Shown in pieces: positions 49,203 through 60,340 of a DNA stretch of 64,000 nucleotides. How positions within the stretch are numbered: the first letter of the stretch is position 1; every line of letters starts with the position of its first letter. The stretch covers positions 1,612,001-1,676,000 of the forward strand of contig NZ_BDCO01000002.1 in assembly GCF_001613545.1 (NCBI RefSeq), given 5' to 3'. The notes under the pieces are model-generated. The model had not been told where the DNA came from and did not search any database. It worked only from the letters and a program-made list of their open reading frames with translations. The translations under genes were made by a program, and so were the position numbers. Source of the DNA: Terrimicrobium sacchariphilum. Lineage in GTDB: Bacteria; Verrucomicrobiota; Verrucomicrobiia; Chthoniobacterales; Terrimicrobiaceae.

Positions 49203-49235
49203 AACGCCGCCTGCACGAATGTGCGGCGGCGTTTT
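49203..49235 (+). terminator. rho-independent terminator after cysI
   Basis: AACGCCGC (49203-49210) pairs with GCGGCGTT (49226-49233), with a further TGCAC/GTGC pairing inside the loop, followed by TTTTG. It stands 47 bp after the cysI stop. Confidence 0.85.
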
Positions 49236-49300
49236 GTTTCGGGAATACGGGATGCAGCTCTCTTTTGCTTTCAAGTATCTGTACAGAGTTATTTGACACT

Positions 49301-49316
49301 ATTGTATCGATATAAT
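49301..49316. promoter_or_regulatory. near-palindromic operator overlapping a TATAAT box, before the sulfatase
   Basis: A 16-base near-palindrome centred on TCGA (14 of 16 positions symmetric) includes TATAAT at 49311-49316, 10 bp before the sulfatase ATG. TTGACA lies at 49293-49298, but the 12-base spacing is too short for a normal promoter pair. It could be an operator of a LacI-type regulator, whose sites are also palindromes with a central CG. Confidence 0.4.
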
Positions 49317-49325
49317 ACAGGTGAA

Positions 49326-50990
49326 ATGAGTATGGGTTTACTTCTGAGATCGATGCTCGGATTCCATCAACCCGGAACTGCTCGCCCTCTTCATCACATG
49401 CCTCAGACGTTTCATTGCGCCTCCCCGAAGCTTTGCCTGCCGGGCAGCATTCGCACCAGGATCAAGTCATTGAGCCGCCTCGGGCAACTCTCATGCCTTG
49501 CGCTGGTATTGCTGACCTTGCTTGCGCTTTCTTCCTGGAAGGCGAACGCCGCCGAGCCGCTTCCCAATATCGTCCTTATCAATGCGGATGATTTGGGCCT
49601 GGGTGACGTCAGTTGCTATGGAGCAAAGGCGTTGTCGACGCCGAATCTGGATCGACTCGCTGCGGGAGGATTGCGTTTTACGGATGGCCACGCGTCCGCT
49701 GCGACTTGTACGCCGTCGCGATACTCGATGCTGACGGGCGAATATGCGTGGAGGCAGCGAGGAAGAGAAATCCTGACAGGCGATGCAAATCTCATAATCA
49801 AGCCTGGCTCCACCACACTGGCTTCCATCCTTTCGCATGCGGGATACCGCACCGGGATCGTAGGAAAATGGCATCTCGGCCTCGGAAAAGGCAAGATCGA
49901 CTGGAACACTAATATCAGCCCCGGTCCCCTGGATGTGGGATTTGACAGTCAGTTCATCATTCCCGCGACGCTGGACCGGGTGCCTTGTGTGTTTCTGGAA
50001 GGCAGCAAAGTGCGAAACCTGAGCGTGGATGATCCTATCGAGGTCAGCTACTCCCATCGCGTGGGCGATCTGCCAACTGGGAAATCCCATCCAGAGATGC
50101 TGCTGATGACCGCCGACGACCAGCATAGTGGAACGATCGTGAATGGCGTAAGCCGGATCGGCTTCATGAAGGGAGGAAAATCCGCGCTATGGTCCGATGT
50201 CGACATGCCAGACCTGATCGTTCAGAAGTCCGTGGATTTCCTGGAGGAAAGCAAGGGCAAGCCGTTCTTTCTCTACCTTGCTCTGGTCGAGCCTCATGTG
50301 CCGCGAATCCCAAGTGCACGTTTTGCCGGCAAGACTCCCTTGGGTCCCCGCGGAGACGTCATCCTGCAGCTCGATTGGATTGTCGGTCAGGTGCTCGATG
50401 CCTTGGACAACCGGGGTCTCGCCAGCAACACGATCGTCATTTTTACCAGTGATAACGGTCCGGTACTGAATGACGGATATGGCGACCAGGCTGTCGCGAA
50501 GAACGGAACGCATACTCCAGCGGGACCGTACAAGGGTCGGAAGTATGTCGCCTATGAAGGAGGCACTCGTGTGCCCTTCATTGTCCGATGGCCGGAAAAG
50601 ATCAAACCGGGCGTCTCCGATGCCTTGGTTTGCCAGATCGACTTTCCGCGCACCTTCGCCCAACTGACAGGACAAAGCATCGAGAGTGGCGCTGCGCCCG
50701 ACAGCCAGAATATGCTGGCACCGCTTTTAGGGGAAACACAGCAGGGGCGGAAAACACTGGTAGAGGAGGGCGTGTCGGAAATGGGATTCCGCGACGGTAG
50801 TTGGAAACTCATCGTCCCGAAGAATCCGAAGAAAGATGCGGGCGCCCCCACAGTCAGCGTGAATAATTCCCAGTTGTTCAATCTGGCTGAGGATGAGGGT
50901 GAAAAGATAAATCTCGCTCAAAAAGATCCTCAGCGTCTGGAAGCCATGTTGGCACAACTCCAACGTATCCTGAATGGAGGTACGGAATAG
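49326..50990 (+). CDS. secreted Cys-type sulfatase
   Basis: A sulfatase of the alkaline-phosphatase superfamily that removes sulfate esters, probably from glycans. The protein has 554 residues. A long N-terminal stretch precedes the export core (LSCLALVLLTLLALSSWKANA). Metal residues are in NIVLINADDLGLGD; the formylglycine site is Cys128 in ATCTPSRYSMLTGEYAW, matching C-x-P-S-R. GIVGKWHLGLG and FTSDNGPVLNDGYG complete the fold. ATG 49326 is the likely start; ATG codons further in are possible. It faces a formylglycine-generating enzyme gene 140 bp away, which could mature this cysteine. Confidence 0.92.
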   Translation: MSMGLLLRSMLGFHQPGTARPLHHMPQTFHCASPKLCLPGSIRTRIKSLSRLGQLSCLALVLLTLLALSSWKANAAEPLPNIVLINADDLGLGDVSCYGAKALSTPNLDRLAAGGLRFTDGHASAATCTPSRYSMLTGEYAWRQRGREILTGDANLIIKPGSTTLASILSHAGYRTGIVGKWHLGLGKGKIDWNTNISPGPLDVGFDSQFIIPATLDRVPCVFLEGSKVRNLSVDDPIEVSYSHRVGDLPTGKSHPEMLLMTADDQHSGTIVNGVSRIGFMKGGKSALWSDVDMPDLIVQKSVDFLEESKGKPFFLYLALVEPHVPRIPSARFAGKTPLGPRGDVILQLDWIVGQVLDALDNRGLASNTIVIFTSDNGPVLNDGYGDQAVAKNGTHTPAGPYKGRKYVAYEGGTRVPFIVRWPEKIKPGVSDALVCQIDFPRTFAQLTGQSIESGAAPDSQNMLAPLLGETQQGRKTLVEEGVSEMGFRDGSWKLIVPKNPKKDAGAPTVSVNNSQLFNLAEDEGEKINLAQKDPQRLEAMLAQLQRILNGGTE

Positions 50991-51130
50991 CCTTTGGCAA
51001 TTCCTACAGGGCTCTCAGAATCATGACAACGGCTGCACCAGAGGAACTCATTTGTTTTTCCTGACTGGGGAGTGCCGCGTGATTGAGAGATGTTTTCGAT
51101 CCAGTTTTTGACTGGTGATTCTGCGACAGC

Positions 51131-52246
51131 CTAAGGATTGGACGGAAGAGATTTGACGCAGCGGAAGCCAATATGGCTCGTGCCGGTATCGGGGGTCGAA
51201 CCGCGACGGGCGGCAGGGCGATAGCTTTCGCAATAACTGGGAGAACAGAGAAAACTGCCGCCTTTGATGACCCGGCGCACGGTGCCGGGGACATCGGCTG
51301 GCGAGGGATCACCGGGCAGAATACGCTCCGGCTCTCCCGAGGCAGGGCCGCGGGGATCGCAGCACACCATGGTCTTGTTCTCGCCGCGTTCGGCGAATGC
51401 CGCCCCATGATAGATATCGGCGCACCAGTTCCAGACATTGCCGCCCATGTCATAGAGCCCGAATCCATTGGCAGGGAAGCTGCCGACGGGTGAGGTGCCA
51501 ATAAACCCATCGGCTGCCGTATTGTGATACGGAAAGTCCCCGGTCCAGCGGTTGGCATGGTATTTGCCATCGACGATCTCTTCGTCGCCCCAGGCATACC
51601 GCTGACCATCCAGTCCGCCCCGGGCGGCGTATTCCCACTCGGCTTCTGTGGGTAGACGCTTGCCCGCCCACTTGGCATAAGCCTCGGCGTCTTCCCATGC
51701 GATTTGGACCACAGGATGATTCTCGCGGCCCTTGATCGTGCTGCCGGGGCCTTCGGGATGCTGCCAGTTTGCTCCCGGTGTCCATACCCACCAGTTAGCC
51801 ATATTGTTAAGCGGCACGGGTCCGGCGGTGGGTTGAAAGACGAGAGAACCCGGTTGGAGCATTTCGTCCGGTGGCTTGGGCGTGCCGGGGGGAACCTGCT
51901 TCTTGATTTCCTCCCAGTCGACCGGCCGCTCCGCCACGGTCTTGTATCCCGTCGCTGCGACAAATTTTGCGTAATCGGCGTTTGTGACGGGGTAGATATC
52001 GATCAAAAAGGGTGAGACCTTCACGCGATGGGCGGGCTTTTCATTAGCTTGTGCATACGGTGCATCGGACCCCATCGTAAATTCCCCTCCAGGCAGGGCC
52101 GCCATGCCCGGTTCAGCTGCGGCTAAGCGCGGAACTACAGAGGACAGCGCAACGCTCAGCGCGACGAGCGCGATGAGGAGGCGGTTTCGATCCGTCGGAG
52201 TATTGCAGTTCAGAGACGAAAGCATTTCGGTTTGCTGGATTCCCAT
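51131..52246 (-). CDS. secreted formylglycine-generating enzyme (FGE/SUMF1-like)
   Basis: An enzyme oxidising the CxPSR cysteine of sulfatases to formylglycine. A signal peptide (LLIALVALSVALSSVVPRLAAA) precedes GEFTMGSDAPYAQANEKPAHRVKV. Also typical are IDIYPVTNADYAKFV, LPTEAEWEYAARGGL and GNVWNWCADIYHG. The copper-binding pair is Cys334 and Cys339 in GSFLCSPSYCESYRPAARRG, spaced as in characterised bacterial FGE, and it ends TSHIGFRCVK. It converges on the sulfatase. Because many FGE-fold proteins lack these cysteines, their presence makes true FGE activity likely. Export would place it in the periplasm. Confidence 0.9.
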   Translation of the reverse strand: MGIQQTEMLSSLNCNTPTDRNRLLIALVALSVALSSVVPRLAAAEPGMAALPGGEFTMGSDAPYAQANEKPAHRVKVSPFLIDIYPVTNADYAKFVAATGYKTVAERPVDWEEIKKQVPPGTPKPPDEMLQPGSLVFQPTAGPVPLNNMANWWVWTPGANWQHPEGPGSTIKGRENHPVVQIAWEDAEAYAKWAGKRLPTEAEWEYAARGGLDGQRYAWGDEEIVDGKYHANRWTGDFPYHNTAADGFIGTSPVGSFPANGFGLYDMGGNVWNWCADIYHGAAFAERGENKTMVCCDPRGPASGEPERILPGDPSPADVPGTVRRVIKGGSFLCSPSYCESYRPAARRGSTPDTGTSHIGFRCVKSLPSNP

Positions 52247-52365: not shown

Positions 52366-53406
52366 CTATTTGCCGACTTCGACGTACTCTCCATCGTATT
52401 TTTCGGCGAGACGCTTGAGCACCTCGGGATGGCATTCCGACTCCGGGCGGGCGATCCAGATACAGTTTACCTTGGGCTTCTGAAAGTTCTTGCTTATGGC
52501 GTTATCGATCGCGCTGAGGGTCTTTCCGATATTATCCTTCGGGATCTGTCCATCGGTCATGAAGAAGATCAGATCGGGCGCTGGTGAGGCCAGCATGGCG
52601 TAGCGAAAGGGCTGCTTCCAGTCCGTACCGCCAGGTGCCGCCGATTGCTGGCGGAGATTGGACATAACGGAATCCACGTTCTCGGAACTGATGGAAATCC
52701 AAGGCGGGGAGTCGAGCTTTTCGTCCCCGACGAGGGAAAAGTCATCGTAGCCGGAGCCTTTTTTCCACTTGGAGTTAACTTCGCTGATTCGCTGGGTGGG
52801 CAGCCAGGCAGGGCCAGCCCAGAGGATGAGCATCACCTGCGTGCCAGGGGCGAGGGAGCGAAGGCTGCGCTCGAGTTCCTTCTCCATTTTGGTCCGAAAT
52901 GGACCGCTCATGCTCCCGCTATAGTCGAGGAGGAATGCGATCCGCTTTTTTGCCTGCATGTTGACACCGAAGAAGGGAATGGATCGTCCTCCCGGAGAGC
53001 CTCCTCCTCCGGCGAGTCCGCCGAGCGAACCTAGCGACGGGGAACTCGCTCCTGCCATCGATGAAGGCAGCATGGAATTCATTTGAGGCATGTCGGGCAT
53101 ATCCGGGAGGGCGATTTTCGAGGCCGCGTTGGCGGTGATCTTGCTTGTCATCGCCGGCATCATGGCCGAGGCGGGGGATTGGGGTGCGGCGACCTTGTAC
53201 TCCAGAACCCGACTGCTTGCCTGGGTGGATTTTCCTGCTCCCTGGAAGGTCACCTTGCGCTTGGTAACGATGCTCTGGACGACAAACGCAGTGGCGACGA
53301 CGAGGATCAGGACATGAACGGCGACACTGACCCAGAAGAACCAACCTTTCTTGAGTGAGCTGAATCGGTTTTGCAGCCAATGGGTGATGGCGACTTTGGC
53401 ATCCAT
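52366..53406 (-). CDS. VWA-domain protein with TonB-like N-terminal membrane anchor
   Basis: A 346-residue inner-membrane protein. A single N-terminal helix (WFFWVSVAVHVLILVVATAFVV) carries Ser27 and His31, spaced S-x3-H as in the TonB helix that couples to ExbB/ExbD. A linker rich in Ala, Pro, Met and Gly (residues about 60-150) follows, then a VWA domain with an intact MIDAS motif (LDYSGSMSG) and FMTDGQIP. ATG 53406 is the start before the helix; upstream codons look non-coding. It is last of a six-gene operon after ExbB and two ExbD genes (14-bp gap). Its role is inferred: force-transmitting or signalling partner of the ExbB/ExbD motor. Confidence 0.82.
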   Translation of the reverse strand: MDAKVAITHWLQNRFSSLKKGWFFWVSVAVHVLILVVATAFVVQSIVTKRKVTFQGAGKSTQASSRVLEYKVAAPQSPASAMMPAMTSKITANAASKIALPDMPDMPQMNSMLPSSMAGASSPSLGSLGGLAGGGGSPGGRSIPFFGVNMQAKKRIAFLLDYSGSMSGPFRTKMEKELERSLRSLAPGTQVMLILWAGPAWLPTQRISEVNSKWKKGSGYDDFSLVGDEKLDSPPWISISSENVDSVMSNLRQQSAAPGGTDWKQPFRYAMLASPAPDLIFFMTDGQIPKDNIGKTLSAIDNAISKNFQKPKVNCIWIARPESECHPEVLKRLAEKYDGEYVEVGK

Positions 53407-53420
53407 GGCGGGAGGGTGAT

Positions 53421-53879
53421 TTATTGGCTGACCGAATCGTCGGTGGTTGAGAATGTGACGCCCTTTACTTCGCATAGGGCGAGGGCATCGAGTACCTGGA
53501 TCGCACGGGAGTATGGAGTGTCGCCTTCGCTGACCAGTGTGACCAGCAGCTCGGTCCTGGCCGCGTCGGCGTTCTGCTTCAAGCGCTGCATCGCGGCGGA
53601 GAGTTGCGGCAGGCTTTTGTTGCTGGCCGCTGTCTCGATTGGTTCTTCGTTGAGCAACACGTCTCCGTTAGCCGAGATCGAGACGATCTGTTCGTCCGGG
53701 AAGTCGACCGACTCGGATGTTGGGGCATTGCCAGGGAGTTTTGTGTTGAGCTCGCGCTCGATTTTCACCGAGCCAGCCATCACCATAAAGAAGAGCATGA
53801 GGACAAACATCACGTCCAGCATGGGGGCGATCTGAAATCCCAGGTATCCCTCCTGATCATCAAGGTCAACGTGTCGCAT
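53421..53879 (-). CDS. ExbD/TolR-family protein (second copy)
   Basis: A 152-residue protein with one N-terminal membrane helix. The helix GFQIAPMLDVMFVLMLFFMVMAG carries the Asp that conducts protons in ExbD/TolR. The periplasmic part has INTKLPG-like NTKLPGNAP and FPDEQIVSISANGDVLLNEEPI, the family's fold. It differs clearly from the upstream ExbD, so the pair may form a mixed dimer. It is 6 bp after that gene and 14 bp before the VWA gene. Confidence 0.92.
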   Translation of the reverse strand: MRHVDLDDQEGYLGFQIAPMLDVMFVLMLFFMVMAGSVKIERELNTKLPGNAPTSESVDFPDEQIVSISANGDVLLNEEPIETAASNKSLPQLSAAMQRLKQNADAARTELLVTLVSEGDTPYSRAIQVLDALALCEVKGVTFSTTDDSVSQ

Positions 53880-53885
53880 GGTGAA

Positions 53886-54347
53886 CTAGTCCCTGTTGGT
53901 GGCGGAAAAGCTGATATCCGAAATCCCTGCCTGGGCGCAGGCCCCCATGGCCGCGGCGACATAGCGCACGGGGACATCGCGGTCGGCGCGGATGACCGCA
54001 CGATATTCCTCGGGCGAGGTGGCGGTGTCCCGGGTTTGATCCGAGCGGGCTTTGGCGCTCCGGAGCGGTTCCAGCATGCGGGAGGCATCCTCGTAGCTTT
54101 GATCGTCGAAGGTGAACCCCGCGCTATGCTTTTCGGCATTCCATTGCACGTTGACGATGGCCTCCCGGCGCATGTTTTCCTTCTTGGTCGCGTTTTGGGC
54201 GATGGGCAGTTTGATGTTTCGGTCCACTTTAAGAACCTGCGCGGAAGTGATCGTCATGAAGAAGATCAGGATGACCAGCAGGACATCGACCATCGGAGCA
54301 ATCTGAAACTCCGGTTCGCCGCTCTCGAGATTTCCACCGCCAGCCAT
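53886..54347 (-). CDS. ExbD/TolR-family protein (first copy)
   Basis: A 153-residue protein with FQIAPMVDVLLVILIFFMTIT, the proton-channel Asp inside the only membrane helix, then DRNIKLPIAQNA. The periplasmic domain is longer than in the second copy and includes EEYRAVIRADRDVPVRYVAAAMGACAQAGISDISF, matching the C-terminal ExbD pattern. It lies 12 bp after the ExbB gene. Confidence 0.92.
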   Translation of the reverse strand: MAGGGNLESGEPEFQIAPMVDVLLVILIFFMTITSAQVLKVDRNIKLPIAQNATKKENMRREAIVNVQWNAEKHSAGFTFDDQSYEDASRMLEPLRSAKARSDQTRDTATSPEEYRAVIRADRDVPVRYVAAAMGACAQAGISDISFSATNRD

Positions 54348-54359
54348 GGATTAAAGAGG

Positions 54360-55196
54360 CTAGGCGTTGACTGGAGAGGCTGCCTCGACTTCCTCAGCTT
54401 GCTGGGGAAGCGTCCAGTTGGGCTGTGCGGCATAAAGCTCCTCGCTGCCGAGATGAACGTCCTTGAGCAGGTCATAAGGCATGCGGCGGAACAGTCGGGC
54501 GATTTCATCCTGGAGGTCGTGCATTGCCCGGGAGAGGCGATTGCGCAGGAAGTAGAAGCAGCCGAAGGCCGGGATCGCGATGAAGAGGCCCGATGCGGTG
54601 GCGACCAGGACCTCGCCGATGGCAGCCGAGAGACTCGAGGGGTCGCCGATGCCGGAGGAGCCCAGGGTGGCAAACGCGCGAATCATCCCGGTGACTGTCC
54701 CGAGAAGTCCGATCATGGGCGTACAAACGCCGATGACGGAAAGGTAGCTGATGTAGGTGTTGACGCTGGAGTTGACCCGTACGACCTCGCCGTGGATGGC
54801 TTCTTCGGTCGCTGTTTTCCCTTCTCCGAGTCCCGATAGTCCGGCGCAGGCGACCCTCGCCAGCGGGGAGGGGTTCTTCTGGCAATACTCATAGGCATTG
54901 ACGTAATCGCCCTGCCGGAAAAAGGTTCGCAGGTTCTCCATGGTTGCCTCAGGCATCATGCGCTTGCGGCTGGTGCGCAGGACGCCTTCCCCGACGAGAT
55001 ACAGGGTGAGCAGAGAACATATGCTGATGGGGATCATGACCCATCCGCCTTCCTTGAGGGTTTCAAAGAGTGTTTTCTCGTGGACGCTGCCTGCTTCGCC
55101 TGCCGGACCTTCCTCCGCGAGACACAGCGGAGCAAAGCCGAGAAGCGCTATCAAAAGCAGAGCGTTCTTGATTCGATGGATTCTGTCTTTTTTCAT
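54360..55196 (-). CDS. MotA/TolQ/ExbB-family proton channel protein
   Basis: A 278-residue inner-membrane protein. It has a cleavable-looking signal segment (NALLLIALLGFAPLCLA), a first helix VMIPISICSLLTLYLVGEGVL, and two further helices in the conserved TolQ/ExbB block (SVIGVCTPMIGLLGTVTGMIRAFATLG and EVLVATASGLFIAIPAFGCFYFLRN). Threonines of the channel are conserved. It forms a proton-driven motor with the ExbD proteins encoded next. It overlaps the upstream TPR gene by 4 bp. Confidence 0.94.
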   Translation of the reverse strand: MKKDRIHRIKNALLLIALLGFAPLCLAEEGPAGEAGSVHEKTLFETLKEGGWVMIPISICSLLTLYLVGEGVLRTSRKRMMPEATMENLRTFFRQGDYVNAYEYCQKNPSPLARVACAGLSGLGEGKTATEEAIHGEVVRVNSSVNTYISYLSVIGVCTPMIGLLGTVTGMIRAFATLGSSGIGDPSSLSAAIGEVLVATASGLFIAIPAFGCFYFLRNRLSRAMHDLQDEIARLFRRMPYDLLKDVHLGSEELYAAQPNWTLPQQAEEVEAASPVNA

Positions 55197-56062
55197 TTGG
55201 TCTGGATGCTGGATGTGTCGGCGGGCCTGTTCTGTCGCCGCTCAAGACGCGCAAAATCGTCTTTCGCCGCCGCGAGTTCGGGTGACGCCGGGTAGAGACT
55301 CTTGAGATCCTGAAGGTAAAATGCCGTCCACTTCAGGTCATCCATCTGGAAGAACGCGCGGGCAGCCTCCAGCGTCGCGGCGGCCTGCAATTCCTTCACG
55401 CCTGGATAAAACACGCGAATACCCAGAAAGCCTTCCGCAGCCTCGCGAAATCGATCTTGCTGAGAGAGCGCCCGGGCGGTGAGGAATTTCAGCTCGGCCT
55501 TGGTGTGCGGGTCCGGGTCCTTCAGTGCCTCAGCGACCCTAGTGACGCTTTCACTGAGTTTGACACCGTGGAGTTGATCGGAGAGAGCGAGTTTTCGGAG
55601 GGCGGCGAGCGCGCCGGGTTGAGTATCCACCGGGAAATGGGTGGTGATCTCATCGTAGACCTGCGCGGCACCGGAACGATCGCCGGAGATTCGCAGTGCA
55701 TCGGCCTGCACCAGTGCCGCCTCCGCCCACCATTGGCCGGGGAGATCTTTGACGGGGCCGTAGAGTTGCAGTACGGGCCGCAGCATTGCGCGGGCTTCAG
55801 CGGGCTTGTTCTCACCCAGGAGCGACTTTGCGGAGCGAATCTCCGCAGGCTCCTCGGCATCAATGGTGGCAATACTGGAAAGCGGATAACCGACCTCCAT
55901 CTTTCCTCCTTCCGCCAGATCGGTCGGAACCCTAAGCGTTGCGCCGGATACGGAAAATGTCGCAAAAGGAATCCGGCGGCCATCTTTCAGAACGAGCTCC
56001 TGGGAATGCAGAGAAGCGGTCGCGATCAGCGCAAAAATGGCGGTGGGGAGTATGGCTTTCAT
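55193..56062 (-). CDS. secreted tetratricopeptide-repeat protein (smaller)
   Basis: A 289-residue exported protein. The signal peptide is MKAILPTAIFALIATASLHS. The mature part starts with a short beta unit (ELVLKDGRRIPFATFSVSGATLRV) and continues as helical TPR-like repeats (EIRSAKSLLGENKPAEARAML, QYDEITTHFP-like VYDEITTHFPV, ELKFLTARALSQQDRFREAAEGFLG). ATG 56062 overlaps the stop of the large TPR gene (TGATG), so translation is coupled. It probably lies in the periplasm as a partner of the motor. Confidence 0.82.
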   Translation of the reverse strand: MKAILPTAIFALIATASLHSQELVLKDGRRIPFATFSVSGATLRVPTDLAEGGKMEVGYPLSSIATIDAEEPAEIRSAKSLLGENKPAEARAMLRPVLQLYGPVKDLPGQWWAEAALVQADALRISGDRSGAAQVYDEITTHFPVDTQPGALAALRKLALSDQLHGVKLSESVTRVAEALKDPDPHTKAELKFLTARALSQQDRFREAAEGFLGIRVFYPGVKELQAAATLEAARAFFQMDDLKWTAFYLQDLKSLYPASPELAAAKDDFARLERRQNRPADTSSIQTK

Positions 56063-58932
56063 CACTGGGCGGACTGATGGGTGGCGAGTTCTTTCCGGGC
56101 TGTGGCGAACTCCGGAAGCTTCGATAAAGCATCCTGCCTTAGCATTTCCTGCCACGTCCGGATGGCCTCCTGGGGCTTGTTCATGCGGAGAAAGCAGTCC
56201 GCGCTGGCGAGATAGGAGCGTGCGACCCAATGGGGAAACTTGAGCCAGGAGACATAGACACGCTGAAAGTATGCGTTGGCCTCGGCGTATTTCTGCTGCT
56301 TGCGCTCAATTTCGCCAAGCCAGTAAAGGCTTTCCGCCGTGGGTTCGCCCCGCCACTGTCTGGTCGACGCCACCTGCTGGAAGGTCTTGGTCGCTTCACG
56401 GTATTGACTCATCGCCATCTGGGTTCGTCCCAGACCCACGAGGGCCTGGGGCATCCATGAGCCGGGGCGGGCGATCGCCGCCTGGAAGTGCTTTTGAGCA
56501 CCATCGGTGTCTCCGCCGAGCAGCGCGAGGCGGCCCAGTCCAACCTCAGCAGCATCGATATTGGCGCTCTTGGGGAAATCGCTTTTGAGGACCTCGTAAA
56601 ACGATTTCGCGCGCTCTGTGTCTCCCGCAGTCAGCAGCCGGTCGCCGGCCATGGCCAGCAGTGGAGCGCTCAGGTCTTCCGGTTTGAAGTCACGGGCGAT
56701 TTGATCCAGCAGGGCATTGGCGCGTTCGGGATTGCGCTTCAGGCGTGCGGCCTCAGCCTGCGCATAAAGAATGCGGGCCTTTACGAGAGGCAATTCGGTC
56801 TCTGGATCGGCGAGCGAGGAGGCGATCTCCTCGTCGATCCCCTGGGTCGTCCCGGCCTTATGATCGGCAGTGAGATTGTCTGCTCTTTTCCTGGATGCCA
56901 GTTGGGCGTAGAGGAGGAGAAGCTGTTCCACGCCGTCGCGCCGCCGGTCGGCAATGTAACGCTTTACGTTTTCCGCTGTGATGCGGCGGGCTTCCGTGGG
57001 CTGGCCGAGGCGCTCCCGGGCACGCCCGACCCAGTAGATCGCCATGACGTTCAGCGGGCTGTCGGGATGTGTATCGACAAATTCCTGGAACAGTTTTCCG
57101 ATGCTTTCCCAGTCTCCGGTCTTCTGGTACGACTTCTGTGCTTCCTGCAGGGCATACTGAAGCACCTCGTCAGTCCTCGCCAGACGTACTGCGGACGCAT
57201 AGGCGGCAGCTGCCTCGGGAAAGCGTTCGAGGGCTGCGTAGGTGTCGCCAAGCAGGGCGGCGTTTTCCGCCTGCAAGGGGTCCTCGGGAAATTCCTTTGC
57301 CCAGGACTGGCAGGAGGCGATCACCTTGTCGTAATCTTTTGCCGCGTAGTCCGCCACCTCCAGGCGGTATTTAGCCTCAGCGCGGAAGTTTCCCTTGGGA
57401 TACTTCTCCAGATATTGGTTGAACCCCTGAACTGCCCGATTGAGATCTCCCTCAAAGAAATAGCTTAGCCCGAGGCGACAGATGATTTCCTCGGCATATT
57501 CGCCGGAGGGGAATTCCCGGAGATAGCCTTCGTATTGCTTGCGCGCCTCGGGAAGCCGGCCTTGCATGAAATTCACGTTGCCCAAAAGATAGACCATTTC
57601 GCCGCGCCGGGGATTCTTTGGCTGATCTTTGAGAGCCACCCCAAAGAACGTGGCTGCGCTGGCGAGATCCTGATGTTGCAGGGCGAGCGCGCCGTTGAGG
57701 TAGGAGATTTCCTCCGCGCGTTCGCCTTTCGGAAACTCCTTCAGGTACTGAGCGCATGCTGCCTGGGTTTCCTTGTAGGGCACGATGTCGGCCATGGAGT
57801 AAATCCAGAGCGACATCATGCTTTCGCGCAGAGGACTCTTGGGAAATTCCTCCAGCATATGCCTGAGTACGAGGTAGGACTCCCATGGCCTGCCCGCGGT
57901 GGAATAGGCGCGGGCAATACGGAACCAGACCGACTCGTCAAATCCGGACAGTTGACGAAACCCGCCCAGCGCTTCCTCCGCGGCGGCAACTGCATTCTCC
58001 AGGTCCGCAAGACGCGCGGTGCCTGCCGCGTCCTGCGTGGCGGGTTTCTTCTTCTCGTTCTCTATGGCCTGCTTCAGCTCGGCGATCTTCTTTTCCTGGA
58101 GTGCAATCAAGTCTGCCTGCAATCGGGCCATTGCGTAATATGCCAGGGCATCGGCCAGCTCGCCTTTGTCGGAATAATGATCTCCCAGACTCAATGTCAG
58201 GATGTTTAGCTGGAGCGGATTGTCGATCCTGGCCGGATGATCCTGCAGAACGCGGATGACTCTGGATGCCTCATCCCAGCGCTCGGTCGAGAGCAGCGCC
58301 TCCGCCAGCATCTGGCTGGCCGCGGCCTTTTGCCTGCTGTCCGGCAGCGGCGGCTTTCCGGTCAGGGCCTCCAGCAAAGGAATCGCTTCAGCGGGCTTCT
58401 TTTCCTGCATGGAAAGCGAGGCCTGATAGAGCAGAATTTGATTCCGGTAAGCAGGAAGTTGCTGAAGGAGGGCAAACTGGGCTTTCGCTTTTGATGGAAC
58501 TCCGCTTTTTAGCGCTGCGATAGCCAGATTCATTCGCGCTTCATTCACCTTGGGCGAAGCGGGAAATTTCGAGAGAAATTTTTCCCAAGAGGATATGGCT
58601 GCGGAGTAGTTGGCGGTGTTAAAATTTGCCGCAGCCAGCGTAAGATAGGCTGCCTCGATCGCGGATTGCCATTCGGGCGGAGCGGAGGCGGGAAGCAGCG
58701 AGAAGAACTGGTTCAGATTTGTGATCGCACCAGCGAAGTCATTGGCGGAGAAGGCGGACATGCCATCGCCATGGGCCTTCATCACCTTCTCCGTCGTTGC
58801 CAGAGCGTCGGGAGCAGCCGGGGCTGCTCCGACGGCGCGGACTCCCGAGCACGCGATTCCGACCACCAATGAAGCAAGAACCACGCTGGTAGCGAGCGTG
58901 GTTCGTCTGGAGGAGGGACAAGCGAACGACAT
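56062..58932 (-). CDS. large secreted tetratricopeptide-repeat protein
   Basis: A 956-residue exported protein. After a signal peptide (LATSVVLASLVVGIACSGVRAVGA) it is nearly all TPR-like helix pairs, for example LTLAAANFNTANYSAAISSWEKFLSKFP, YLREFPSGEYAEEIICRLGLSYFFEGDLNRAVQGF and IERKQQKYAEANAYFQRVYV. Tol-Pal-associated YbgF and outer-membrane assembly proteins show similar repeats. It is the first gene of the operon. ATG 58932 is placed at the signal peptide; the upstream frame to 59250 overlaps the promoter and the RhaT gene. Suggested role: periplasmic scaffold. Confidence 0.82.
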   Translation of the reverse strand: MSFACPSSRRTTLATSVVLASLVVGIACSGVRAVGAAPAAPDALATTEKVMKAHGDGMSAFSANDFAGAITNLNQFFSLLPASAPPEWQSAIEAAYLTLAAANFNTANYSAAISSWEKFLSKFPASPKVNEARMNLAIAALKSGVPSKAKAQFALLQQLPAYRNQILLYQASLSMQEKKPAEAIPLLEALTGKPPLPDSRQKAAASQMLAEALLSTERWDEASRVIRVLQDHPARIDNPLQLNILTLSLGDHYSDKGELADALAYYAMARLQADLIALQEKKIAELKQAIENEKKKPATQDAAGTARLADLENAVAAAEEALGGFRQLSGFDESVWFRIARAYSTAGRPWESYLVLRHMLEEFPKSPLRESMMSLWIYSMADIVPYKETQAACAQYLKEFPKGERAEEISYLNGALALQHQDLASAATFFGVALKDQPKNPRRGEMVYLLGNVNFMQGRLPEARKQYEGYLREFPSGEYAEEIICRLGLSYFFEGDLNRAVQGFNQYLEKYPKGNFRAEAKYRLEVADYAAKDYDKVIASCQSWAKEFPEDPLQAENAALLGDTYAALERFPEAAAAYASAVRLARTDEVLQYALQEAQKSYQKTGDWESIGKLFQEFVDTHPDSPLNVMAIYWVGRARERLGQPTEARRITAENVKRYIADRRRDGVEQLLLLYAQLASRKRADNLTADHKAGTTQGIDEEIASSLADPETELPLVKARILYAQAEAARLKRNPERANALLDQIARDFKPEDLSAPLLAMAGDRLLTAGDTERAKSFYEVLKSDFPKSANIDAAEVGLGRLALLGGDTDGAQKHFQAAIARPGSWMPQALVGLGRTQMAMSQYREATKTFQQVASTRQWRGEPTAESLYWLGEIERKQQKYAEANAYFQRVYVSWLKFPHWVARSYLASADCFLRMNKPQEAIRTWQEMLRQDALSKLPEFATARKELATHQSAQ

Positions 58933-59167: not shown

Positions 59168-60340
59168 CTAGTGGGAGGGTTCCGTCCCCAGGAAGTTTCC
59201 GTATCCGACAATGACGGTCGATCCGATGAGCAGAAGGAGGCCGAGGGCAATCAAGGCATGCGTGCGGCGACTGGTGCCTCGCCACTCGTGGAGAACGATC
59301 CCCCACAATGTGCTGAAAATGATGATGCTGGCCATGTGGAGGGTCCAACTGGAAAACTCGTACTGGCCCATTTTTGTCTGCCCCATGCTATAAAAGAAAA
59401 ACTGCAGATACCACGTAATGCCCGCTGCCGCGGAGAGCAGGTAATTTCGCAAGAGCGGCGCAGGTCCCGCGATGGTTTGGAGAGGTTTCTCCGAGGAGAC
59501 GGATTTCTCCTCTGCGGCAGTAGAGAGCATCAGACCCTCGGCGGCACTGACTTCGGCAACCGCCGCAGGACGGAGGTTGAGGTATTCGTGTCCTGATCGG
59601 TTTTTGAAGTTCAGGATGAGGCACCAGATGAAGTTGGTGGTGAACCCGCCGAGGAGCACGATGACGAGGACGGGGAGATTCTGCCAGAGGTCGCTTCCAC
59701 CATGCTCGAGGAGCGAGGCTTTGGCGAGGTCGCCTAGAGGCTTTCCGGCGGCCAGGCCGAAGGCAAAGCACGAGCTCATGATGCCGGAGAACGTCGCGAC
59801 GAGCATGCCCTTGGTGAAGTGAAACTCCTTCACGGTGGCAGCCTTTTGCTCGGGAGAAAGCTCTCGTTCCTTGGACATTCCTGCCATGCCGCTAATACCG
59901 ATGCCGACCAGGCATGCGAGCACACCGAGAATAACCATCTGCCCTGATACGGTGCCGACGATACTCCCGATCTTTCCCTCAAATAACGGAGGGATCAGCG
60001 TGCCAAAGGCTGCGCAGAAGCCCAGTGCAACCGCCATGCCCAGAGCGATGCCGAGATAGCGCATGGTGAGACCAAAGGTGAGCCCTCCCACGCCCCAGAG
60101 GACGCCAAAAGTATAAGCCAGTAGCAGCGCCTGCGGGGGCGCCGAGGAGATAACATGCCATAGCCGGGGTATCAGCAGCCCTGCGAAGATCCAGGGAGCA
60201 ATGATCCAGCTGAAGACGCCTCCTACGAGCCAGTAGGTCTCCCACGACCAGCGCCGCACCCCGCGATAGGGGATGTAGAAACTCGCGGAGGCAAGGCCTC
60301 CCAGCCAGTGATAGAAGACGCCGAGGATCGGATTGCTCAT
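59168..60340 (-). CDS. rhaT: L-rhamnose/proton symporter (RhaT family)
   Basis: A 390-residue inner-membrane carrier with about ten helices. The N-terminus NPILGVFYHWLGGLASASFYIPYRGVRRWSWETYWL is characteristic of RhaT. Also family-like are LWGVGGLTFGLTMRYLGIALGMAVALGFCAAFGTLIPP and the C-terminal WYLQFFFYSMGQTKMG. It would import L-rhamnose, in agreement with the probable rhamnosidase at 63381. It lies 40 bp downstream of the carbohydrate-binding protein gene on the same strand. Confidence 0.93.
   Translation of the reverse strand: MSNPILGVFYHWLGGLASASFYIPYRGVRRWSWETYWLVGGVFSWIIAPWIFAGLLIPRLWHVISSAPPQALLLAYTFGVLWGVGGLTFGLTMRYLGIALGMAVALGFCAAFGTLIPPLFEGKIGSIVGTVSGQMVILGVLACLVGIGISGMAGMSKERELSPEQKAATVKEFHFTKGMLVATFSGIMSSCFAFGLAAGKPLGDLAKASLLEHGGSDLWQNLPVLVIVLLGGFTTNFIWCLILNFKNRSGHEYLNLRPAAVAEVSAAEGLMLSTAAEEKSVSSEKPLQTIAGPAPLLRNYLLSAAAGITWYLQFFFYSMGQTKMGQYEFSSWTLHMASIIIFSTLWGIVLHEWRGTSRRTHALIALGLLLLIGSTVIVGYGNFLGTEPSH

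Follow-up and report, generated by a model that had tools for sequence, protein, structure and literature searches.

The window, a 64,000-nucleotide stretch of Terrimicrobium sacchariphilum DNA, carries on its minus strand one operon comprising the genes for TPR1, TPR2, ExbB, ExbDa, ExbDb and a VWA protein, in this order (Table 1). The best overall explanation of this operon is that it probably encodes a proton-driven trans-envelope machine, whose role may be the capture or import of glycans. ExbB and the ExbDa/ExbDb pair would form the inner-membrane motor of this machine. In the manner of TonB and TolA, the VWA protein would bind ExbB from outside, with its H31 in contact with S61 in helix 1 of ExbB. 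The linker of the VWA protein would then extend into the periplasm and present an exchangeable binding head, here a VWA domain, which the motor would pull or rotate and which would engage the exported TPR proteins or their cargo.

Table 1 Features of the operon in the window. Positions are counted from the first nucleotide of the window; fractions give the number of aligned transducers in which a residue is kept.
Feature	Position	Strand	Support
VWA transducer (TM helix, linker, VWA head)	52366..53406	-	Pfam VWA_3 1e-8
VWA head, MIDAS DYSGS at 161-165	52384..52944	-	Pfam VWA_3/VWA_2
FFG motif 145-147, linker-head junction	52966..52974	-	F145 72/83, F146 69/83, G147 70/83
P101 codon, LPxMP linker motif	53104..53106	-	79/83
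S27-V-A-V-H31 codons within the helix	53314..53328	-	H31 78/83, S27 65/83
ExbDb, distinct second ExbD	53421..53879	-	Pfam ExbD 1e-18
ExbDa	53886..54347	-	Pfam ExbD 4e-19
ExbB motor subunit, signal-like N-terminal extension	54360..55196	-	Pfam MotA_ExbB 2e-23
ExbB S61 codon, aligned with TolQ S28 / E. coli ExbB S34	55014..55016	-	
TPR2, exported TPR protein, smaller than TPR1, distantly related to Mul1B	55193..56062	-	NCBIfam NF052542 9e-6
TPR1, large TPR protein, exported, Mul1A counterpart	56062..58932	-	Pfam TPR/YfiO matches

The ExbB, the two different ExbDs and the VWA protein named in the original prediction were all found where it had placed them. The motor looks competent, as the pore aspartate is present in both ExbDs (Asp21 of ExbDa, kept in 82/82 across loci, and Asp22 of ExbDb, kept in 86/86) and the conserved Thr167, Thr200 and Pro209 are present in ExbB. 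Both TPR proteins exhibit a signal-peptide-like sequence at their start, read by eye, and for TPR1 the ATG ahead of this sequence was chosen as the start. The match of TPR2 to the "Mul1B family" NF052542 is under the family cut-off. The TPR2 model is a predicted TPR solenoid, and the fold search performed with it returned generic TPR solenoids. The operon is flanked, at 49221-52246 and 59168-60340 of the window, by genes for a sulfatase, a formylglycine-generating-enzyme-like protein and a RhaT-type rhamnose symporter. A sulfatase, a sulfatase-activating enzyme and a rhamnose symporter as neighbours provide weak context for a glycan role.

The anatomy predicted for the VWA protein is confirmed in each of its parts. 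With residue 1 placed at the start codon (53406), S27 and H31 are located in the sole membrane helix with the S-x3-H spacing, the helix is followed by a disordered, proline/glycine-rich linker of about 90 residues, and the C-terminal part is a MIDAS-type VWA domain with DxSxS at positions 161-165. The single-sequence AF2 model, which has a low overall confidence and is usable for the helix and the unstructured linker only, shows a helix at residues 2-55 and an unstructured linker at residues 55-145. The FFG motif at the junction between linker and head is retained with VWA heads and with some PA14-like heads. Pfam and NCBIfam gave no match to a TonB_C or TolA C-terminal domain in the VWA protein, its helix contains no pore Asp, and the search for solved structures related to it by sequence gave a chance match only.

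The window operon shares with the ExbB-ExbD-TonB and TolQ-TolR-TolA systems the motor residues, the S-x3-H helix, the Ser partner in ExbB helix 1 and the disordered linker. In contrast to these systems, it has two different ExbDs and no TonB/TolA C-terminal domain, the equivalent of Trp38 is not conserved, and the Leu-Ser half of the TonB SHLS motif is missing, with A38 and V42 instead. This Leu and Ser are weakly conserved in Ton as well (PMC12215075).

A profile of the operon ExbB was run against 288 Verrucomicrobiota genomes, and 100 regions were then examined. The order TPR1-(TPR2)-ExbB-ExbDa-ExbDb-transducer recurs at about 60 loci, distributed over many Verrucomicrobiota families, and an orthologue of TPR1 comes first in the operon at about 60 loci. 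When the conservation of S-x3-H is checked across homologues, the histidine is near-invariant (H in 65/69 motor-linked transducer matches), so that the coupling idea survives the refuting condition set for it, and the serine is less conserved (S 51, T 5, A 8 and G 3 among the same 69). The four motor-linked matches that lack the histidine are two fragments of one broken gene (L114), plus L132 and L135. In the alignment of 83 transducers, H31 and P101 are the only columns conserved at 90% or more, and H31 is the sole invariant column in a diverse 29-row alignment of the helix and linker. The recurrence at about 60 loci, together with the conserved His column, indicates that the arrangement is more than chance. 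With Akkermansia left out, the operon-type ExbB and the transducer are both found in 78 genomes, singly in 11 and 6, and are both absent from 171 (Fisher 2e-47, uncorrected for relatedness). Five unlinked paralogues exhibit no His, three of them having Asn. Unlinked VWA paralogues with S-x3-N are located at L051:6811-8034, L054 and L064, in genomes of one family; in at least one genome with such a paralogue (G186), the operon-type ExbB still has the Ser.

In E. coli, Ser16 and His20 of TonB contact Ser34 and Trp38 of ExbB, and His22 of TolA contacts Ser28 of TolQ (PMC12215075). S61 of the window ExbB was placed at the contact Ser by alignment with TolQ. The residue at this position is Ser wherever the transducer of the operon has the His (59/59 ExbBs). 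It is Ala, Phe and Ala, respectively, at L132, L135 and L114, the three His-less operons, and the seven MUL1-type motors have E, L, L, L, V, V and I there. Of the 25 ExbB columns with at least 90% conservation, only S61 is lost in all the His-less operons and MUL1 motors. The ExbB tree gives four inferred losses of His and four of Ser, which coincide, with no discordant locus; two of these four events are on well-supported branches, the sign test is not significant, and L114, with its broken gene, is on a long branch. As Ser is frequent in ExbB helix 1 generally, including in motors with no adjoining transducer, it is only its loss that is informative. The position of E. coli Trp38 is occupied by V/I/L/F in the operon ExbBs, and the contact network is therefore not identical to that of E. 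coli. The joint loss of His and Ser points to these residues as those of the docking contact, and TonB-like docking of the transducer helix on ExbB is predicted from the sequences with high probability.

With regard to the heads, Pfam models recognised VWA in many of the 83 transducers, PA14 in four, and squalene-hopene-cyclase/prenyltransferase toroids in ten, and the MIDAS is intact in 42/83. L108 (PA14, 1.9e-8) and L098 (toroid-like, 7e-8) are clear non-VWA heads. The window VWA protein aligns with L061, from a sister operon, over residues 16-120 only (39%), the heads being unaligned, and the head of L061 matches that of L108. The alignment between L061 and L175 of Akkermansia is, for its part, restricted to the PA14 head (35%), and the toroid-like heads of L098 and L174 align at 47%. 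As these alignments, limited either to the helix and linker or to the head, show, heads and helices recombine. Some operons exhibit two transducers behind one motor, such as L101, with one toroid-like and one PA14 head. It is very likely that the motor offers one slot, which accepts exchangeable C-terminal heads of the VWA, PA14 or alpha/alpha-toroid-like type. The idea that a proton motive force motor drives a VWA protein by way of a TonB-like helix is thus partly supported, as the histidine of this helix is near-invariant and lost together with the ExbB Ser. The VWA domain is inessential to the idea, since in sister operons this helix and linker are followed by PA14 or toroid-like heads.

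The transport and processing of mucin by Akkermansia are mediated by the loci MUL1 and MUL2 (PMC13174399; PMC12418764), and CAZymes associated with Mul1A have been noted (PMC11790493). The Akkermansia-family MUL1 loci, for which the genus was confirmed through a named contig, exhibit the order ExbB-ExbDa-ExbDb-Mul1A-Mul1B. Like the window operon, they comprise ExbB, both ExbDs, and a large and a small TPR protein, the relation between the TPR proteins being distant. For each of the two ExbDs, the best match is to its own profile, the TPR1 profile matches the protein at the Mul1A position at about 1e-19 to 1e-27, and further weak NF052542 matches outside Akkermansia are located in the same operon type. 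As TPR proteins cross-match easily, the relation to Mul1A and Mul1B rests partly on position. A common origin of the window operon and MUL1 is strongly favoured by these data.

The MUL1 loci differ from the window operon in their gene order, in the loss of the ExbB Ser and in the absence of an adjoining transducer, as no S-x3-H protein was found next to them. Nevertheless, the helix-linker profile detected two to four unlinked homologues per MUL1-type genome, which have VWA (L171), PA14 (L175 and L180) or toroid-like (L174 and L176) heads, as in the operon family. In contrast to the window transducer, those of MUL1-type genomes have lost the His, which is present in 0/25 readable sequences (two rows, one of them partial and the other due to chance, were left unjudged). 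Given that these unlinked transducers are His-less, that their heads are close to the operon heads, and that the MUL1 ExbB is Ser-less, motor and heads appear to have changed their contact together. The unlinked transducers may serve the MUL1 motor. Their neighbours are mixed, and glycan enzymes were not seen as constant neighbours. In addition, the MUL1 ExbBs L070, L100, L103 and L113 have lost the helix-3 Pro (the equivalent of P209 is Ile) and exhibit Phe at A201, which indicates that the relay known from Ton/Tol is altered throughout in these ExbBs.

As MUL1 has the same core parts, energising the capture or import of large glycans is the most likely job of this machine, at slightly under an even chance. 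No TonB-dependent receptor plug domain was detected in the genome of the window, and its motor is therefore unlikely to serve such receptors there. The motor may exert force on the two exported TPR proteins encoded upstream, as the conserved gene order suggests. The occurrence of the operon in genomes lacking tolA/tonB was not borne out: TonB_C proteins were matched in 10/10 genomes tested, which rules out a replacement of TonB or TolA. More broadly, Verrucomicrobiota may use one ancestral motor, driven by the proton motive force, to carry interchangeable periplasmic heads (VWA, PA14 or toroid-like), of which some genomes have several for each motor, and may thereby energise glycan capture or import via TPR scaffolds. 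MUL1 of Akkermansia would then be a specialised form, in which the docking contact co-changed from His-Ser to hydrophobic. This broader scheme is tentative.

A housekeeping role similar to that of Tol, in which the head would bind peptidoglycan or outer-membrane proteins while the motor stabilises the envelope or aids division, the use of glycans in Akkermansia being derived, could account for the resemblance of TPR1 to the CpoB/YbgF and BamD repeats, for TolR and TolQ being the best-scoring relatives of the motor, and for a gene order conserved over many families. However, several differently headed transducers per motor, as observed in some genomes, would be odd for a tether, and the genomes also keep TonB_C proteins. 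Moreover, only 84/288 genomes were positive for the transducer, and as many members of the phylum lack it, the phylum has no general need of it. Such a role is therefore unlikely. VWA domains act in adhesion, and a gliding-related role has been proposed by Williams-Jones et al. (PMC12204202), in which case the motor would move VWA adhesin-like heads; this is improbable, since a single inner-membrane helix followed by a linker of about 90 residues leaves the head in the periplasm, since the heads vary, and since no further gliding genes were noticed. Equally improbable is a VWA protein that is simply an anchored binding protein, with the co-transcribed ExbBD serving another partner such as one of the TonB_C proteins also encoded in this genome, given the near-invariant His, its joint loss with ExbB S61 and the lack of a detected receptor plug.

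The preferred reading, a proton-driven machine with a docked transducer, is closely related to a published one. "vWA force transducers" with TolQ/TolR-like motors have been described in PVC bacteria, with docking through the His predicted by AF3 and with no phenotype reported (Williams-Jones 2025, PMC12204202). As in the window, these transducers have a TPR gene, a tolQ-like gene and a tolR-like gene pair upstream, and comprise one helix with S-x3-H, a disordered linker and a C-terminal vWA domain. The window operon belongs to this kind, and the idea of coupling a VWA protein to a proton motive force motor is already published there as a prediction. The SHLS motif is present in "many" vWA force transducers according to PMC12204202, whereas the window protein lacks the Leu and the second Ser; as only "many" members are said to have the motif, the full SHLS is not a strict family requirement. 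A second vWA family in the same paper, with a TolR-like trans-pore helix (Fig. 4c,d), also combines one helix and a vWA domain beside a TolQ-like motor, but exhibits a pore Asp in the helix and no ExbD/TolR gene, in contrast to the two ExbDs and the helix His of the window.

The exchangeable heads, the His/Ser co-loss and the relation to MUL1 are added here to what PMC12204202 reports, the text of which contains no mention of PA14, squalene, Akkermansia or mucin. Bringing the vWA transducers and the Akkermansia mucin locus into one family suggests a mechanism shared by both, namely a proton-driven motor with exchangeable heads instead of the SusCD/TonB route. The force transducers missing from the picture of mucin uptake may accordingly be the unlinked head proteins of Akkermansia, which are candidates for this role, and the link to MUL1 gives the predicted vWA machine a testable job, which is glycan uptake.

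Several variants of the motor were also observed. The genome of the window contains a second related motor (L131, C3:37000-52000), comprising ExbB and three ExbD matches, with no recognised transducer adjoining it. No viral relatives were found. At nine loci (L110, L111, L116, L117, L120, L125, L130, L136 and L140), a TPR1-like gene is followed by an operon-type ExbB and no ExbD was matched in the fetched region, which makes an ExbD-less variant possible; at L110 and L116, unrelated genes come after ExbB. The ExbB matches L003 (G000:C2:3004180) and L004 (C3:2469), located on two different contigs, share the same score and the same frame length, and reflect either a duplicated region or an assembly artefact. 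Finally, L192 and L194 exhibit the same kind of operon with three ExbD genes after one ExbB.
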